A stretch of 64,000 nucleotides of DNA. Source: Flavobacterium plurextorum. GTDB lineage: Bacteria; Bacteroidota; Bacteroidia; Flavobacteriales; Flavobacteriaceae. The notes beneath the pieces are model-generated. The model was not told the DNA's origin and did not search any database. It saw only the letters and a program-made list of their open reading frames with translations. The position numbers and the translations under genes are program-made. The DNA lies in the NCBI RefSeq assembly GCF_002217395.1, contig NZ_MUHD01000021.1, positions 1 through 64,000 on the forward strand, in the 5' to 3' direction. Below are positions 50,546 through 63,280 of the stretch, piece by piece (within the stretch, counting starts at the first letter, position 1; each line of letters begins with the position of its first letter).

Positions 50546-51292
50546 TTGATCACAAAAGTTGTATGTTTTTTTGTTGCTGTTATGAGTCAAAATGTATGGT
50601 CTCAAAATCAAGAACGCTCTGTTTTGAATGGAAAAATCATTGCTAATACCAATGATTTAGAAGGAGTTTATGTTGTAAATGCGCAAACAGAAGCAATGAC
50701 TACTACAGATGCTTCTGGTGCTTTTTCGATTATGGCAAAAGCCGATGATACGCTTGTTTTTTCATCTATACAATTTAAAGAAAATAGAGTCTCACTGTCT
50801 GTGGCTAATTTTACAGATTTAAACTTTACGGTAAAAATGAATATGGTGATGAATCAGCTGCAGGAAGTAGTTGTAAAGAGATACGATAGAATAAATGCTG
50901 TTTCTTTAGGGATTGTTCCTGAGGGGCAAAAAAGGTATACAGTAGCCGAAAGGAAATTGCATACAGCAACGGATTTAAAAGCTCCAGGAGGTGGTTTGAC
51001 TGCAGATCCTTTAATAAATTTTCTTTCGGGCCGCACAGCAATGCTTAAAAAAGAAGTCGCTGTCGAGAAGAAAGAAGCTTTTATGAGGCTTTTAGAGAAT
51101 ATGTTTAGTATGGATCATTTTATTAATAGATTGAAAATTCCGCTTGACTATGTAAAAGGGTTTGAATATTATGCTGTAGATAATGAAAAATTTACGGCTA
51201 TTTTGAATTCGAAAAACAAAACTTCTGTTGAGTTTTTGTTAGGTGAGCTGGCAGTAAAATACAAAGAGATAATCGCGGGTGAAAACAAATAG
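50546..51292 (+). CDS. Exported SusC-N-terminus-like protein, array member 1
   Basis: A 248-residue protein whose function I do not know. A TTG start gives a signal peptide ending VWSQ; the first in-frame ATG would cut it. Residues 26-100 match a carboxypeptidase-regulatory-like beta-sandwich (GVYVVNA, TTTDASGAFSIMAK, DTLVFSSI). NQLQEVVVKRY (103-113) resembles the segment joining this domain to the plug in SusC-type receptors, but no plug or barrel follows. A charged helical tail starts SLGIVPEGQKRYTVAERKL (120-138) and SGRTAMLKKEVAVEKKE (161-177). The C-terminus FLLGELAVKYKEI recurs in members 2 and 3. Confidence 0.78.
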   Translation: MITKVVCFFVAVMSQNVWSQNQERSVLNGKIIANTNDLEGVYVVNAQTEAMTTTDASGAFSIMAKADDTLVFSSIQFKENRVSLSVANFTDLNFTVKMNMVMNQLQEVVVKRYDRINAVSLGIVPEGQKRYTVAERKLHTATDLKAPGGGLTADPLINFLSGRTAMLKKEVAVEKKEAFMRLLENMFSMDHFINRLKIPLDYVKGFEYYAVDNEKFTAILNSKNKTSVEFLLGELAVKYKEIIAGENK

Positions 51293-52040
51293 TAGTTTGC
51301 TTCTTATATTGTTTGTTCAAATAAGTTTTGGACAAGAAACGGTTTCGAAAGAAATTTCGGGGCAAATTTTAGAACCGTCTATTTCGGTTGAAGGAGTAAA
51401 TATTATTAATATCGCGACTCAGGTAACATCTGTTTCTAATGCCGATGGAAAATTTTCTATAAAAGTAAAAGAAGGAGATGTTTTAGTTTTTTCGGCTATA
51501 AATTTGGAGTCTCAAAAATACCGAATTACAAATACCGATTTTAGTTTGGCTTCGATACAAATTAAAATGAAAACAAAGCAGACAGAATTGAGTGAAGTTG
51601 TCGTGAATAAATATGCTCATATAAATGCTGTGAATCTTGGAATCGTTTCGAAAAATCAAAAGAAATATACCGCTGCTGAAAGAAAATTGGCTGTTGCCGG
51701 GGATTTTAAGCCTATTTCTCTTTTAGGATTATTAGGAGGTTCAATGCCTCTTGATCCTATTTTAAATAAAATAATTGGACGGACTAAAAACTTGAAAAAG
51801 AATATTGAAGTCGAGAAGAAGGAAGTCAGTATAGTACAACTGGGATATTTATTTGAACAGGCTTATTTTGTGGATCGTTTAGGTGTTTCTTCTGAATATG
51901 TTACAGATTTTAAATATTACCTTGTTGAGAATGAAGAAGTCGTTTCTCTTTTGAGAAGCAAAGAGAAGTCTAAGCTGGAGTTTTTAATAAACGAGCTGGC
52001 TGTAAAATACAAAGAAATAATAGCAAGTGAACTTAAGTAA
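51279..52040 (+). CDS. Exported SusC-N-terminus-like protein, array member 2
   Basis: A 253-residue paralogue of its neighbours. A GTG start overlaps member 1 by 14 bases. It has a signal peptide (LLLILFVQISFGQ), then the beta-sandwich domain with GVNIINIATQ, SNADGKFSIKVKEGDVLVFSA and LSEVVVNKYAHINA. The tail keeps LGIVSKNQKKYTAAERKL, but the SGRTAMLKK motif is changed to IGRTKNLKK. The C-terminus ends in EFLINELAVKYKEIIASE. The exported pool probably sits in the periplasm or outer membrane; partners are unknown. Confidence 0.78.
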   Translation: MKTNSSLLLILFVQISFGQETVSKEISGQILEPSISVEGVNIINIATQVTSVSNADGKFSIKVKEGDVLVFSAINLESQKYRITNTDFSLASIQIKMKTKQTELSEVVVNKYAHINAVNLGIVSKNQKKYTAAERKLAVAGDFKPISLLGLLGGSMPLDPILNKIIGRTKNLKKNIEVEKKEVSIVQLGYLFEQAYFVDRLGVSSEYVTDFKYYLVENEEVVSLLRSKEKSKLEFLINELAVKYKEIIASELK

Positions 52041-52755
52041 TACTTTATATATAATCTTTTTTATGTGCTTTGTTCAAATTTGTTTTGGGCAAAACAGCAA
52101 TGGAAAAGTAATTTTGGGGCAAATATTTGAACAATCTACTCCAATCGGCGGTGTAAATGTTATTAATAATAATACGCAGATTGCGACTGTTTCTGATGAT
52201 GATGGGCGTTTTTCAATTTCGGTAAAAGAAGGAGATGTTTTGGTGTTTTCGGCAGTAAATTTAGATCCTGTAAAACGTCGGATTACAAATGGTGATCTTA
52301 GTTTGAGTTTGCTTTCGATTAAAATGACAGCAAAAGAAATTGAATTAAAAGAAGTTGTTGTAAATGATAATTACGGTATTACGGCTGAAAATTTAGGAAT
52401 TGTACCTCATGGACAAAAAACGTATACGCCGGCAGAAAGGAAAGTTTATACGGCAACTTCAACCTCGGTGGATAAAATATTAAATGGGATTTCGGGACGG
52501 ACTGCAATGCTGAAAAAGGAGATAAGTGTTGAGAAAAAAGAGATGCTTTTTAGAAAAATAGAATATCTTTTTGATGAGAACTATTATACTGAAAGATTAA
52601 AAATCCCTATTAATGATATTAGAGGATTTCAATTATTTTGTGTAGATGATACTGAATTTGCCGTATCTTTGAATACTAAGAATAAAACAATGAGCATGTT
52701 TTTAATTACTGATTTAGCTCGTAAATATCTTATAATCCTTGAAAATGAAAAATAA
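52027..52755 (+). CDS. Exported SusC-N-terminus-like protein, array member 3
   Basis: A 242-residue paralogue, closest to member 2 in its sandwich domain (DDDGRFSISVKEGDVLVFSAVNL). A GTG start again overlaps the previous gene by exactly 14 bases. Signal peptide MCFVQICFGQ; IELKEVVVNDNYGITAENLGIVPHGQKTYTPAERKV and ISGRTAMLKKEISVEKKE are intact. The C-terminus (FLITDLARKYLIILENEK) is the most diverged of the three. Confidence 0.78.
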   Translation: MNLSNTLYIIFFMCFVQICFGQNSNGKVILGQIFEQSTPIGGVNVINNNTQIATVSDDDGRFSISVKEGDVLVFSAVNLDPVKRRITNGDLSLSLLSIKMTAKEIELKEVVVNDNYGITAENLGIVPHGQKTYTPAERKVYTATSTSVDKILNGISGRTAMLKKEISVEKKEMLFRKIEYLFDENYYTERLKIPINDIRGFQLFCVDDTEFAVSLNTKNKTMSMFLITDLARKYLIILENEK

Positions 52756-53500
52756 AATTACAATTGTTGTTATCTGCTTGTTTTGTCAAGTAATGTTTGG
52801 TCAAAATAATCCAAGAACCTCTTTGCATGGTCAGGTTGTTAATGGATCGCTTGCTATAGAAAGCGGTTATGTTATGAATGTAAATGCTAAAATTAGAACA
52901 TTTATTGGTTCTGGCGGGTTGTTTGATATTATGGCAAGACCTAAAGATACGCTGTTGTTTACTGGTTTAGCTTTTCAATCAAAGAAAATTGTTTTAACAG
53001 AGAAAGACTGTTCTCAAATTCTTTTTTCAGTGCCATTAGATTTGGTAAGTAATGAATTGAAAGAAGTTTTAGTTCGAAAAGATTTAAAAGTTAAAGCTTT
53101 TCAAGGCGGAAACTCACAGACTCTTGTCGATATGCAGTTTGAAGATGATAAGCAGTCTACAGCAAAGAATACTGTAATGTACTCTGATCAAACAATTAAA
53201 TACGGAACTGATTTCGTTAGAATATTTAAGGATGTAAAAAAACTTCTTTCTAAAAATAAAGATGTAAAAGAAGAAGTGATATCTGATATTGCTTTTGTAG
53301 AATATTCTAAAGCTAATTTTAAACCAGATTTTTATACAAAAACTTTAGGTTTGAAACAGGATGAAATTGATTTGTTTTTAATGTATTGCTCTAATGATCC
53401 TGAATCTAAAAGGCATCTTAAGCCAGAAGAAAAATTTGAATTGATCGATTTTATGATCAATAAGAATAAGGAATTTAAAAAGGTGAATTCTCCGCAGTAA
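52745..53500 (+). CDS. Exported SusC-N-terminus-like protein, array member 4 (diverged)
   Basis: A 251-residue relative with an ATG start overlapping member 3 by 11 bases; a TTG two codons earlier is possible. It has a signal peptide (VVICLFCQVMFGQ), then the same sandwich domain with weaker motifs (GSGGLFDIMARPKDTLLFTGL) and SNELKEVLVRKD. The AERKL and SGRTAMLKK segments are absent and replaced by a Lys-rich helical region. It may have a different role or partner. Its stop overlaps the DUF6702 start by one base. Confidence 0.72.
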   Translation: MKNKITIVVICLFCQVMFGQNNPRTSLHGQVVNGSLAIESGYVMNVNAKIRTFIGSGGLFDIMARPKDTLLFTGLAFQSKKIVLTEKDCSQILFSVPLDLVSNELKEVLVRKDLKVKAFQGGNSQTLVDMQFEDDKQSTAKNTVMYSDQTIKYGTDFVRIFKDVKKLLSKNKDVKEEVISDIAFVEYSKANFKPDFYTKTLGLKQDEIDLFLMYCSNDPESKRHLKPEEKFELIDFMINKNKEFKKVNSPQ

Positions 53501-54003
53501 TGAAAAAAAGGTTCGTTTATCCTTTAATAGGGATATTATTTCTTTCGCTTTCCGCTTTTGCCTTTCATAAGTTTTATGTAGGTGTTTTTCAGGTTGAATA
53601 TGCGGCAGAAAAGAAAATGATTCAGATTACATCTCGAATTTTTATTGATGATTTGAATAATGGTATGGAGAAAAAATACCATAAAAAAACATTTGTAGGC
53701 ACAGAGCGTGAAACTCCTGCAGATGCAGATCTTCTTAAAAAATACCTTTCCGAAAATTTTTCGATTAAAGTAAACGGACAGGCAAAACCAATCACTTTTT
53801 TGTCTAAAGAAGTTGAAGGAGATGTTTTGGTTTGCTATTCCAAAATAAAAGATGTTGAGAAGTTTAAGACGATCGAAATTGTAAACACAGTTTTGGTTGA
53901 TTGGAATGCAGAACAGCAGAATATTACACATGTAACTGCATTTGGAACTAAAAGGAGTGTGCTTTTTACTCCGTCTTCGAGGAAAGAATTGTTAAAATAC
54001 TAA
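53500..54003 (+). CDS. DUF6702 family exported protein
   Basis: A 167-residue protein with an N-terminal signal or anchor (about 4-24, YPLIGILFLSLSAFAFHKFYVG). A beta-rich domain follows, with the family's IQITSRIFIDDLNNGMEKKYHK and YLSENFSIKVNG segments. Function is unknown. It is joined to array member 4 by a TAATG overlap and followed, 66 bases on, by an M1 metallopeptidase, a neighbour often seen with DUF6702 in Bacteroidota. Confidence 0.85.
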   Translation: MKKRFVYPLIGILFLSLSAFAFHKFYVGVFQVEYAAEKKMIQITSRIFIDDLNNGMEKKYHKKTFVGTERETPADADLLKKYLSENFSIKVNGQAKPITFLSKEVEGDVLVCYSKIKDVEKFKTIEIVNTVLVDWNAEQQNITHVTAFGTKRSVLFTPSSRKELLKY

Positions 54004-54069
54004 TTTATAAGTTAAATAAGTATATTAATTATTATTTTCACACCCAGATATAATTACCATTAAATTTTT

Positions 54070-56307
54070 ATGAAAAAACTTTCATTATTATTAATTTTTC
54101 CTGCTATGTTAATTGCTCAGGAAAAAGGAACAGCACCAAGACAACAAGGTAAATACGATACTAATAAGTTTAGTCAGATGTACGATTTGCTGGCAACACC
54201 AAATATGTTTCGTACAGCATCTGGTGCACCTGGACCGGCATATTACCAGCAGCAGGCAGATTATAAGATTGATATTGAATTAGACGATAAAAAATCAAAA
54301 TTAAGTGGTTATGAAACAATTACTTATTCTAATAATTCGCCAGATAGTTTAGAATATTTATGGGTGCAATTAGATCAAAACCAAGCTAAAGCTAATACAC
54401 AGACTTCATTGGCTGAAGGTGAAAAAATCAATCAAGTTTTACCGCTTGAAGGTTTTTCTAATAAATATTTAAAGAAAGATTTAGAACGTGGTTTTAATAT
54501 TGAGCAGGTAAAAGATGCAAAGGGAAATCCAATGTCTTATACGATCAATGAAACTATGATGCGGATTAATCTGGTTTCACCTTTAAAACCAGGAGAGAAA
54601 ATCGTATTCTCAGTAAAATGGTGGTACAATATCAATAATTATAGAAAAGAAGGTGGACGTTCAGGTTATGAATTGTTTGAAAAAGATGGGAATAAATTAT
54701 ATGTAATTGCTCAGTTTTATCCAAGAATGGCAGTTTATAATGATGTTGAAGGATGGCAGAATATGCAGTTTTGGGGAAGCGGAGAATTTGCGCTGCCTTT
54801 TGGGAATTTTGATGTAAATATTACAGTTCCTGCAGATCACGTAATTGATGCGACTGGAGAATTAACAAATAGAAGTGAAGTTTTTACGGCAGAACAAGTT
54901 AAACGTTACGAACAGGCTCAAAAATCATTTGATAAACCTGTTGTAATTGTTACACAAGCTGAAGCTGAAGCAGCAGAAAAAGGTTTTTCTGAAAAGAAAA
55001 AAACTTGGAAATTCAGCGCTAAAAATGTTCGTGATTTCGGAATTGCATCTTCAAGAAAATTCATCTATGATGCGATGGCTGTAAAATTGAACAATAAAAT
55101 TGTAATGGCAGAGTCTGTTTATCCAAAAGAATCAAATCCGCTTTGGGGAGAAACTTCTACAATGACAGTTGCGCATACTTTAAGAAGTTATTCAGCGCAT
55201 ACTTTTGATTATCCTTACCCGAAAGCAGTATCAGTTTCTGCTGAAGATCAAGGTATGGAATATCCGATGATTTGCTGGAATTACGGGCGTCCTGATGAAA
55301 ATGGGGTGACTAGTAAAGAGGTTAAAAACGGAATGATTGGTGTGGTTATTCATGAAGTTGGGCACAACTTTTTTCCAATGATTGTAAACTCAGATGAGCG
55401 TCAATGGACTTGGATGGATGAAGGTTTAAATTCCTTTTTAGAATATTTGGCTGAGCAGGAATTAGATCCAACGTTTCCTTCAAGACGCGGACCTGCAAAA
55501 AATATTGTTCCTTACATGAGCGGCGATCAAAAGTTTTTAGAGCCAATTATGTCTAATTCTGAAACAATTCACCAGTTTGGAAATAACGCTTACGGAAAAC
55601 CTGCAACAGGTCTTAATATTTTAAGAGAAGTTGTTATGGGAAGAGAGTTGTTTGATTATGCATTTAAAACATATGCAAATAGATGGAAATTTAAACACCC
55701 GACGCCTGAGGATTTCTTTAGAACAATGGAAGATGCTTCGGCTGTAGATCTAGATTGGTTCTTTAGAGGTTGGTTTTATTCAACTGATTTCGTAGATATT
55801 GGAATTAAAGATGTTAAGCAATATTATGTTTCTGATACTCCAACGGCAGATATTAAAGATGTAAAAGTTAGAAAAGGTCGTTTTGGTTTTGAAAAAGGTC
55901 CTTTCGTATACTTAGTTTCTGGAGATAATGCGGAAGTAAATTCTTCTAAGAAAAAAGCATTAGATGTTGAAGACATTAAACCACTGGCAGATTATGTTGA
56001 TCAAACATTTACTGCTGAGGAAAAAGCAAGTATAAAATCGCCTAAATATTTTTATGAAGTTGAGTTTAATAAGCCAGGAGGTATGATTATGCCAATTCTT
56101 GTTGAAATAACTTATGAAGACGGGACAAAAGATAATTACAAATATCCTGCACAAATTTGGAGAAAAAACAATGATACAGCTAAGAAAGTGTACGCAGTTT
56201 CAAAAGCAATAAAAAGCATTCAAATAGATCCAAAATTATTAACTGCAGATATTGATGTAACTAATAATTCTTGGCCAAAAGTAGAACAAAAGTCAAAATT
56301 TGACTAA
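54070..56307 (+). CDS. M1-family metallopeptidase
   Basis: A 745-residue exported zinc aminopeptidase-like protein with a signal peptide (LLLIFPAMLIAQ). The N-terminal domain covers about 60-330. The zinc site is complete: HEVGH (about 427-431), then Glu in WMDEGLNSF 19 residues after the second His. The exopeptidase-type motif reads QGMEYPMI instead of the usual GAMEN, as in a Bacteroidota subgroup. The C-terminal part (about 600-745) is beta-rich. It probably digests peptides in the periplasm or at the cell surface, and may act on or with the products of the array upstream. A hairpin terminator follows. Confidence 0.92.
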   Translation: MKKLSLLLIFPAMLIAQEKGTAPRQQGKYDTNKFSQMYDLLATPNMFRTASGAPGPAYYQQQADYKIDIELDDKKSKLSGYETITYSNNSPDSLEYLWVQLDQNQAKANTQTSLAEGEKINQVLPLEGFSNKYLKKDLERGFNIEQVKDAKGNPMSYTINETMMRINLVSPLKPGEKIVFSVKWWYNINNYRKEGGRSGYELFEKDGNKLYVIAQFYPRMAVYNDVEGWQNMQFWGSGEFALPFGNFDVNITVPADHVIDATGELTNRSEVFTAEQVKRYEQAQKSFDKPVVIVTQAEAEAAEKGFSEKKKTWKFSAKNVRDFGIASSRKFIYDAMAVKLNNKIVMAESVYPKESNPLWGETSTMTVAHTLRSYSAHTFDYPYPKAVSVSAEDQGMEYPMICWNYGRPDENGVTSKEVKNGMIGVVIHEVGHNFFPMIVNSDERQWTWMDEGLNSFLEYLAEQELDPTFPSRRGPAKNIVPYMSGDQKFLEPIMSNSETIHQFGNNAYGKPATGLNILREVVMGRELFDYAFKTYANRWKFKHPTPEDFFRTMEDASAVDLDWFFRGWFYSTDFVDIGIKDVKQYYVSDTPTADIKDVKVRKGRFGFEKGPFVYLVSGDNAEVNSSKKKALDVEDIKPLADYVDQTFTAEEKASIKSPKYFYEVEFNKPGGMIMPILVEITYEDGTKDNYKYPAQIWRKNNDTAKKVYAVSKAIKSIQIDPKLLTADIDVTNNSWPKVEQKSKFD

Positions 56308-56317
56308 GAATAAACCT

Positions 56318-56347
56318 AAAAGACTCTGAGAAGAGTCTTTTTTTTTA
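56318..56347 (+). terminator. Hairpin terminator after M1 peptidase gene
   Basis: Stem AAAAGACTCT / AGAGTCTTTT with a 4-base loop and a long T-run. Confidence 0.9.
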
Positions 56348-61495: not shown

Positions 61496-62065
61496 TTATA
61501 AATTAAAGTTTAAATTGAATTTTATTGTTAGATCTTGTCCTGTTTTAATCGTTCCGAGCATTGCAGTTGGAGATTTCATTCCAAAATCGGCAAAAGTGAT
61601 TTTGTTCGATCCCTGCATGTTTAATCCATCTTTCGTAATAGTTGTTTTAACCGTGGTTTTATAAACTTTACTTACTCCAGCAATGGTATAAGTTCCAGTT
61701 AATTCCCAAGTTGTCTCATTTACCTTTTCTGCAGATTTTAAAACATATTTAATGTTTTTGTTTTTATCCGTTTTTAAAGTTGTATAAGCAACTTTGTCCA
61801 TGCTTTTTTTCTCACTTTTAATGCTCTCAGCTAATAGAGTTACAGACAACGCTTCAATATCTGTTAGTTTTGAATTGGCAATCGTTAAAGTTGCCGTTCC
61901 GCTTCCTGAACCTGATTTCATTTCCCAATCATGAAGTGTTGAAGTACCCGCAACAGAAAAAGTTGATTTAGGATCTAATGTGTATGATTTTTGTGCTGAA
62001 GCAAATGTGGTAACTCCAAAGAGCACAATTACAAATGCAAATAGTTTTATTTTGTTGATCTTCAT
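61496..62065 (-). CDS. Exported YceI family protein, first of barrel operon
   Basis: A 189-residue protein with a signal peptide (LFAFVIVLFGVTTFASAQ) and the YceI barrel: YTLDPKSTFSVAGTSTLHDWEM (about 28-49), the AESIKSEKKSMDKVAYTTLKTDKNKNI helix region and FADFGMKSPTAMLGTIKTGQDLTIKF. The N-terminal half differs from canonical YceI in having the TSTLHDWEM form found in Bacteroidota. It is paralogous to the protein at 62370-62933 (same TSTxHDW and KNKNIEYVLKSAEK-like segments). Confidence 0.92.
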   Translation of the reverse strand: MKINKIKLFAFVIVLFGVTTFASAQKSYTLDPKSTFSVAGTSTLHDWEMKSGSGSGTATLTIANSKLTDIEALSVTLLAESIKSEKKSMDKVAYTTLKTDKNKNIKYVLKSAEKVNETTWELTGTYTIAGVSKVYKTTVKTTITKDGLNMQGSNKITFADFGMKSPTAMLGTIKTGQDLTIKFNLNFNL

Positions 62066-62369: not shown

Positions 62370-62933
62370 TCAGCTTAAAATAATGTTGAAAATAACAGTT
62401 AAATCTTTTCCGGTTTTTACAACTCCAAGAGCTGCTTTTGGCGGAGCCATTTCAAAATCGCTAAAAGTAATTTGGTTGGAGCCTTGCAGAATAAAAGTGC
62501 CGTTATTGGAAGTTATTTTTACTTGAGTTTGATATTCTTTGCTGACACCGGCAATAGTATAAGTTCCTGTTAGAATCCAAGTTGTTTCGTTTATTTTTTC
62601 TGCAGATTTTAAAACATATTCAATGTTCTTATTTTTCTCTGTATCTAAAGCTTCGTATGCTACTCTGTCCATACTGGTTTTACTGCTTTTTAAGCTTTCT
62701 GCCAGCAGAGAAATAGTCAAGCTGTTTATGCCGGCTAGTTTGGATTCTTTAACCGTTAAATTAGCAATACCTGTTCCTTCTGTGGATCTCATAACCCAAT
62801 CATGCACGGTAGAAGTTCCTGCAACTTCAAAAGTTGATTTTGCCTCAACTACTGAATAGGTTTTTTGTGCACTTAATTGTAATGAGATTGTTGTAAAAAT
62901 CACTGTAAATAAAATTGATTTAATTGTTTTCAT
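62370..62933 (-). CDS. Exported YceI family protein, paralogue of the operon member
   Basis: A 187-residue protein with a signal peptide (SILFTVIFTTISLQLSAQ). It aligns by eye along its length with the neighbour at 61496-62065: TFEVAGTSTVHDWVM, AESLKSSKTSMDRVAYEALDTEKNKNIEYVLKSAEK, INETTWILTGTYTIAGVSK and FSDFEMAPPKAALGVVKTGKDLTVIF. The start at 62933 gives the signal peptide directly; a longer frame adds eight residues. The two genes probably arose by tandem duplication, with 300 bases between them allowing separate control. Confidence 0.9.
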   Translation of the reverse strand: MKTIKSILFTVIFTTISLQLSAQKTYSVVEAKSTFEVAGTSTVHDWVMRSTEGTGIANLTVKESKLAGINSLTISLLAESLKSSKTSMDRVAYEALDTEKNKNIEYVLKSAEKINETTWILTGTYTIAGVSKEYQTQVKITSNNGTFILQGSNQITFSDFEMAPPKAALGVVKTGKDLTVIFNIILS

Positions 62934-63280
62934 TTTTGAGAATTTTAGGTTGATCATTTAACTTAGAAAGCTTAAAACATTTGCAGTGGTTAAAGAGTTT
63001 AATGCTTCCTTGAATTTCTTATGTCAAAATTATCAGGCATCTGTAAAAAATAGAATGATAAAAATCAGGGCAAAAGTGATATAAATTGTTATAGTAAATA
63101 ATAGGGAGGCAAATTGAACTTAATTATAGGTTCGCAGAAAAATGTTTGTAATATTAAGTGCTTGTTTATTAGTGGATTATTTGTGTTTTTAAGAATGGTG
63201 TAAAACTCTTTTTATTGTAGATGATTTTTTCGATTTAATTAAGAATGCGTTTAAAAATCAAAAAAAAGGACAAAAGTGAT
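62934..63280. other. Intergenic stretch between yceI paralogue and rlmN
   Basis: About 350 AT-rich bases between divergent genes. Apart from the rlmN promoter at its right end, I see no gene, strong hairpin or repeat. Confidence 0.45.

Follow-up and report, generated by a model that had tools for sequence, protein, structure and literature searches.

A probable BamP array with one extra paralogue beside a DUF6702–M1 peptidase gene pair in Flavobacterium plurextorum

We analyzed a stretch of 64,000 nt from Flavobacterium plurextorum (contig NZ_MUHD01000021.1, positions 1 to 64,000; hereafter, the window), which contains, between positions 50546 and 56307, four tandem genes for exported proteins of 242–253 amino acids (aa) (members 1–4), followed by the genes for a DUF6702 protein and an M1 metallopeptidase. 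With high confidence, we interpret this run as a BamP array, in which member 4 is BamP, a periplasmic accessory subunit of the β-barrel assembly machinery (BAM), which builds outer-membrane proteins, members 1–3 are subunits of the BamP2/BamP3 type, and DUF6702 and M1 constitute a separate gene pair. The locus is a known system in a new genome, plus one extra paralogue; the useful additions made here are two loop classes, a start codon pattern, and a third branch of the family found across the taxonomic class. The features of the locus are as follows.

50546–51292, + strand: member 1, BamP paralogue with a class A loop and a TTG start (BamP model, AlphaFold2, Foldseek)
50876–51064, + strand: inter-domain loop of member 1 with AERKL and SGRTAMLKK (boundaries from tree segments, motif columns aligned)
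51279–52040, + strand: member 2, extra class A paralogue with a GTG start (phmmer, BamP model)
52027–52755, + strand: member 3, class A paralogue with a GTG start (BamP model, tree)
52739–53500, + strand: member 4, identified as BamP, with a class B loop; ATG of the reading frame at 52745 (BamP model, PDB match)
53075–53278, + strand: class B inter-domain loop of member 4, counterpart of the F. johnsoniae segment located in the BamA barrel (boundaries from tree segments)
53500–54003, + strand: DUF6702, predicted exported metal-binding protein (PF20420, AlphaFold2 model)
54070–56307, + strand: M1 metallopeptidase, exported, with HEVGH-X18-E (PF01433, reading frame sequence)
56318–56341, + strand: terminator-like hairpin directly after M1, a 10-bp stem followed by a T run

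The successive open reading frames (ORFs) from member 1 through DUF6702 overlap by 14, 14, 17 (11 from the ATG), and 1 bases, and 66 bases separate DUF6702 from M1. Scans of the locus with promoter consensus sequences revealed no convincing promoter.

Member 4 scored 379.5 bits with the NCBIfam BamP model (NF053692), passing the equivalog cut-off of 230, and a PDB sequence search matched it to 9n2d_E, the BamP of F. johnsoniae, with E = 2e-134 (83% identity over 251 columns); no Pfam match was found for it. These sequence matches identify member 4 as the BamP subunit of the BAM complex of Flavobacterium. BamP was described in 2025 as Fjoh_1771 in the BAM complex of F. johnsoniae (PDB 9n2d/9n2e; PMC12611786, cited here and below for the accessible part of its text). 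There, the N-terminal domain of BamP binds POTRA 4–5 of BamA, the linker runs up into the BamA barrel and exits at the lateral seam, and the C-terminal domain bridges POTRA 1 and BamD. In the view of the authors, this state is inhibited or inactive, and client insertion requires that the linker be displaced; they also conclude that the linker blocks darobactin. Removal of all four BamP homologues of F. johnsoniae resulted in darobactin sensitivity; BamP4 had the largest effect on protection, and the other homologues contributed additively. BamP, BamP2, and BamP3 were deleted jointly, and BamP2 and BamP3 showed no appreciable expression on rich medium. The darobactin resistance of F. johnsoniae has thus been explained by the BamP linker (PMC12611786), and BAM is a drug target.

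Members 1–3 matched the BamP model over nearly its full length with 104.9, 93.2, and 93.4 bits, respectively. Because these scores are below 230 bits, the three proteins are filed here as BamP-family paralogues and not as BamP. Member 2 matched 9n2d_E in a phmmer search (E = 6.1e-10, residues 8–247), and all three proteins passed the Pfam cut-off for CarbopepD_reg_2. The AlphaFold2 (AF2) model of member 1, calculated from a 43-row alignment (mean predicted local distance difference test score, pLDDT, 87.8; predicted template modelling score, pTM, 0.48), contains a signal helix, a β-sandwich (residues 25–97), a linker of lower confidence with AERKL inside and GRTxxLKK at its end, and a helical C-terminal domain (residues 154–247). 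The build of the superfamily, that is, a signal peptide, a carboxypeptidase-regulatory-like (CPD) β-sandwich, a linker, and a helical C-terminal domain, is thus present in member 1 according to the model and in members 2 and 3 according to the alignment. In a Foldseek search with the model of member 1, the best PDB match was 9n2d_E (E = 1.6e-7) and the runner-up was 9hfj, a SusC N-terminal extension. The SusC model itself (TIGR04056) was matched by members 1–3 over about the first 90 positions only (34–43 bits, cut-off 368), and neither a plug nor a barrel follows the N-terminal domain, so that they do not qualify as SusC/TonB receptors. Members 1–3 are BamP paralogues, probably of the BamP2/BamP3 kind, and members 1 and 3 most likely correspond to BamP2/BamP3.

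Several observations weigh against this interpretation. None of the members 1–3 reaches the equivalog cut-off, and the identity between member 1 and BamP is only 17% in the C-terminal domain and 18% in the linker. The Foldseek match to 9n2d_E, whose library chain comprises 146 of 249 residues, covers 109 columns with a root-mean-square deviation of 15 Å and template modelling (TM) scores of 0.31/0.52, and therefore supports mainly the N-terminal domain. Furthermore, we infer the equation of members 1 and 3 with BamP2 and BamP3, and the two loop classes may differ in function.

Homology beyond the N-terminal domain was found by comparing the tails, that is, linker plus C-terminal domain. A class A profile (members 1–3 and Flavobacteriaceae relatives, minus three rows that do not belong to this family) and a class B profile (16 BamP-type rows, with two rows from locus L152 left out) aligned with an hhalign probability of 99% (E = 4e-18, 147 columns), and with other sequence sets the result was 96.8% (E = 2.8e-10). 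A tree of 73 rows, midpoint-rooted for drawing, resolved class A (22 rows, support 91/84), class B (18 rows, 91/93), and a third branch (31 rows, 100/98); the joining of BamP with a second triplet of the source genome, described below, was flagged as possible long-branch attraction. The order-level proteins L138 and L139 were placed beside the third branch (91/78) and not in class A. The motifs AERKL and GRTxxLKK thus mark one loop class, and BamP belongs to the second. In the alignment, they are present in members 1–3 (as AERKV in member 3) and absent from member 4. Among members 1–3, the loops are about as similar to each other as the N-terminal domains or more so: the identities of N-terminal domain and loop are 30% and 52% for members 1 and 2, 31% and 57% for members 1 and 3, and 58% and 55% for members 2 and 3.

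Both loop classes often share an array across the Flavobacteriaceae. Among 14 DUF6702 loci of this family outside the genus Flavobacterium, 13 have at least one family member near DUF6702, and class A and class B tree rows occur together in nine; locus L154 has no family member near DUF6702. In locus L151, one BamP-like gene is apparently split into two ORFs.

These results bear on an earlier note made from the sequence of the window alone. It had described the four exported genes as an overlapping run that ends at DUF6702 and M1, the motifs as confined to members 1–3, and the N-terminal domains as SusC-like; all three statements hold, as all six ORFs are present and 9hfj is the Foldseek runner-up. 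Member 4 has, however, not lost the motifs, as the note had it, but belongs to a separate BamP branch that occurs beside the AERKL branch in many Flavobacteriaceae, and the supposed short charged tail consists of a linker, the part of BamP that passes through the BamA barrel, and a C-terminal domain.

To follow the array through the genus, we compared the best 80 of at least 137 confirmed named Flavobacterium loci; as the tail of members 1–3 (class A) was used to fetch them, each contains a class A gene by construction. Orthologues of member 1, member 3, and BamP follow each other in this order in all 80 loci, with DUF6702 and M1 next in 78, and so the arrangement is not due to chance. Precisely this five-gene arrangement is present in 63 loci. 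An additional member-2-like gene was found in 14 loci (in two of them in another order) and two member-1-like genes in one. Two loci (L119 and L123) have retained member 1, member 3, BamP, and the flanking genes on both sides, but both DUF6702 and M1 are gone, and BamP is followed by TatA at about 0.1 kb. F. johnsoniae CI04 also carries the array of member 1, member 3, and BamP, and two of its paralogues group with members 1–3 in the tree. Among the matches listed, the closest named relatives by tail are Flavobacterium oncorhynchi (97%) and Flavobacterium sp. YO12 (96%).

Members 1–3 keep TTG or GTG starts. A gene was counted as lacking an early ATG when none of the nine codons beginning with the first possible start is ATG; this applies to 159 of 175 class A genes in the named Flavobacterium loci (member 1, 68 of 81; member 2, 14 of 14; member 3, 77 of 80), versus 14 of 588 control genes (BamP, 1/80; DUF6702, 0/78; M1, 6/78; TatA, 1/79; PAP2, 0/79; pepE, 3/77; GNAT, 2/51; Ldt, 1/66). 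The P value for this contrast, 1e-126, is descriptive only, as it ignores relatedness. In 65 of the 80 loci, every class A member lacks an early ATG while BamP has one. The first possible start of the 159 genes lies at a median of 21–24 residues ahead of the CPD domain (range 19–39), and any later ATG lies too close to this domain for 15 residues to precede it, which makes a hidden ATG start unlikely. Part of the pattern could be due to the coding constraint imposed by the overlaps. Outside the genus the pattern is weaker, with an early ATG missing from 9 of 19 genes in class A and from 2 of 13 in class B, and some of these genes have a plausible later ATG. A literature search that included the accessible part of PMC6847099 did not find this pattern in print. 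The feature could explain the scarcity of the extra subunits.

Weak starts, together with the reported lack of appreciable BamP2 and BamP3 expression on rich medium (PMC12611786), would also be expected if members 1–3 were decaying duplicates that are no longer made. We give this explanation hardly any credence: all 80 loci contain orthologues of members 1 and 3 as open reading frames, and their loops and C-terminal domains are better conserved than their N-terminal domains. The mean identities to the window, for 72 orthologues of member 1 and 74 of member 3 (>55% identity, 200–320 aa), are 74% and 84% in the loop, 82% and 83% in the C-terminal domain, and 70% and 67% in the N-terminal domain, respectively.

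In the mechanism that we propose for the BamP array, members 1–3 would dock on BAM as BamP does, as the shared architecture and the tail homology suggest, but would insert a different conserved linker (class A, AERKL … GRTxxLKK) into the BamA barrel. Because of their weak start codons, these subunits would be present in small amounts, and with the array the cell could switch between plugs for BamA. Alternatively, members 1–3 might have kept the BamP fold, left BAM, and now serve another Omp85 protein, such as TamL or another BamA paralogue. Five ORFs of the genome have Omp85-domain matches (six matches, of which two in frames of the same 952 aa were taken as one), and the loop differences between the classes are sharp; however, the F. 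johnsoniae homologues add to darobactin protection, an effect that the authors locate at BamA (PMC12611786), and we regard a move to another Omp85 protein as unlikely.

DUF6702 and M1 were the remaining genes to be accounted for. DUF6702 matched PF20420 with 141.3 bits (cut-off 24), and its AF2 model (mean pLDDT 90.0, pTM 0.79) matches Ang-1 (9gce), ZrgA, and PA4063; these matches fit the description of DUF6702 as a metal sequesterase with M1 peptidases among its neighbours, given in the accessible part of PMC12537917. One histidine is invariant in all 16 aligned rows, within AFAFHK in the window. M1 matched PF01433 with 52.8 bits (cut-off 27.7), and its ORF contains the zinc site HEXXH-X18-E as HEVGH-X18-E. 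In a phylum sample of 395 genomes, DUF6702 is present in 114, with an M1 relative no more than 3 kb away in at least 86 of them (M1 rows were used down to E = 2.3e-142, so that M1 misses may be over-counted). The pair was found in 40 of 40 Flavobacteriaceae genomes, always on the same strand, in at least seven of eight genomes of the other family of the order, always divergent, and in at least 39 of the 66 remaining genomes (29 divergent, 10 on the same strand). In loci L150 and L151, two tandem M1 genes lie 3′ of DUF6702. Class A tails, in turn, occur in 40 of the 395 genomes (37 of 41 Flavobacteriaceae, 2 of 8 in the other family of the order, and one other, G070), and the DUF6702–M1 pair is therefore more widespread than the array.

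These distributions also bear on a peptidase-centred envelope system, in which members 1–4 would be substrates, inhibitors, or adaptors of M1 and DUF6702 would be a partner. Same-strand orientation and close spacing in 78 of the 80 named Flavobacterium loci would fit it, as would the position of the array beside DUF6702 (tail within 6 kb) in 36 of the 37 genomes of Flavobacteriaceae that carry a class A tail. However, members 1–4 are BamP relatives, two Flavobacterium loci without the pair still have the array, and outside the Flavobacteriaceae DUF6702 and M1 lie within 3 kb in at least 46 of 74 DUF6702 genomes, mostly divergent, with neither tail profile matched beside them. Such a system is therefore very improbable. 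DUF6702 and M1 are probably a metal-binding protein and a metallopeptidase and not partners of BamP; we infer that they provide metal binding or supply near a metallopeptidase. In the proposed mechanism, this pair would share strand and neighbourhood with the array in Flavobacteriaceae.

The functional proposals of the earlier note fared less well than its observations, which were confirmed, and its interpretation is partly supported. Its uncharacterised envelope system does belong to the envelope but is not uncharacterised, since member 4 is BamP and members 1–3 are homologues. Adaptors for receptors and substrates of the peptidase found no support, and both readings were rejected in view of the BamP identity and the separate occurrence of pair and array. 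The tail is conserved, as the note had anticipated, but not always next to the peptidase, and part of what the note would have taken as refutation was thus observed: class A relatives occur away from it at second loci in G154 and G174 and at L145, L146, and L137, further BamP-family genes of the source genome lie away from it, and L154 has DUF6702 and M1 without the array.

The source genome contains at least eight family genes, four in the array, three at locus C6, and one at locus C34. C6 (L013:6872–9097) is a second tandem triplet of the BamP type, with identities of 80–89% in the N-terminal domains and 59–67% in the C-terminal domains but only 28–45% in the loops, which look as if they were under diversification. 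C34 (L014:6910–7683) is a single BamP-like gene of the third branch, whose protein matches the NCBIfam BamP model in the N-terminal domain only (57 bits). In F. johnsoniae CI04, the C34-type gene is single (96% identical), and the C6 type is represented by two tandem genes (57–62% to the sequence q3). The C34-type gene is present in nine of nine near relatives and the C6-type in six of nine, one of them only as a 112-aa frame, so that BamP4 could be of either type.

According to PMC12611786, detectable BamP homologues stop at the Flavobacteriaceae, and other Bacteroidota have other mechanisms or unrecognised analogous proteins. This restriction holds for the class B-type tail, which occurs in 35 of the 395 genomes, all Flavobacteriaceae. 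For class A, a class-wide distribution was considered and rejected, as its profiles reach few genomes outside the Flavobacteriaceae. A second profile search matched 15 of 198 genomes of the taxonomic class: six Flavobacteriaceae, one from the other family of the order (G012), and eight weak matches (best E 3.5e-6 to 5.9e-4). The weak matches in G397 and G523 lie only in ORFs of more than 2000 aa and that in G549 only in a 917-aa ORF; the third branch was found through those in G455, G080, G441, and G430 and through a further match in G497. A class A relative was also observed in a genome outside the taxonomic class (G070, L137:6383–7210); as it is nested within Flavobacteriaceae class A in the tree, it was probably transferred horizontally.

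For the wider family, the restriction probably fails, as judged from profile comparisons. A third-branch profile, built from the tail of the C34 protein and five proteins found via class A, matched 116 of the 198 genomes and 63 of 120 genera; 82 genomes had no match, and the branch is therefore not universal. As five of the six seeds came from the class A search, the profile involves some circularity. Among the 30 best matches, fetched from 30 genomes, all have a CPD domain (E ≤ 7.1e-6), and a simple rule detected a signal peptide in 26. The 24 non-seed tails aligned with class A at 89% (E = 2e-6) and with class B at 88% (E = 3e-6) in hhalign, versus at most 3% (E ≥ 0.015) for reversed and column-shuffled controls. 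Earlier profiles that included the seeds gave 96.8% (E = 2e-10) with class A but only 55% (E = 1.2e-4) with a four-row class B profile. In the accessible part of a paper on B. thetaiotaomicron and P. gingivalis (PMC12578637), the name BamP does not occur. We tentatively suggest, at somewhat less than even probability, that the third branch is a class-wide plug of the BamA seam. If so, BamP-type gating would be an old and general BAM feature of the class and not an invention of the Flavobacteriaceae, the branch would supply the “unrecognized” darobactin-protecting proteins considered in PMC12611786, and the BamP array would represent the local expansion of a family whose loops can be exchanged. 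The sequences found here provide concrete candidates from across the class, and two loop classes can be compared within one operon.

Elsewhere in the window, positions 61496–62065 and 62370–62957 encode two adjacent, similar small exported proteins, which resemble the YceI type.

Among the closest known systems is that of F. johnsoniae: member 4 is the orthologue of its BamP, and members 1–3 have the same three-part build but a different linker and NCBIfam scores below the cut-off. Member 2 has no counterpart in the array of F. johnsoniae CI04, and four family genes in the array and at least eight in the genome compare with four reported for F. johnsoniae (PMC12611786). DUF6702 belongs to the same Pfam family as the metal sequesterase of PMC12537917 and shares the M1 neighbourhood; in comparison with the protein described there, the histidine here follows AFAF and would start the mature protein only if cleavage takes place directly before it. 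The N-terminal extension of SusC/RagA (TIGR04056; 9hfj, 6ytc) shares the β-sandwich domain and the EVVV-type strand with the members, but, unlike in SusC/RagA, this domain leads here to a linker and a helical domain instead of a plug and a barrel.

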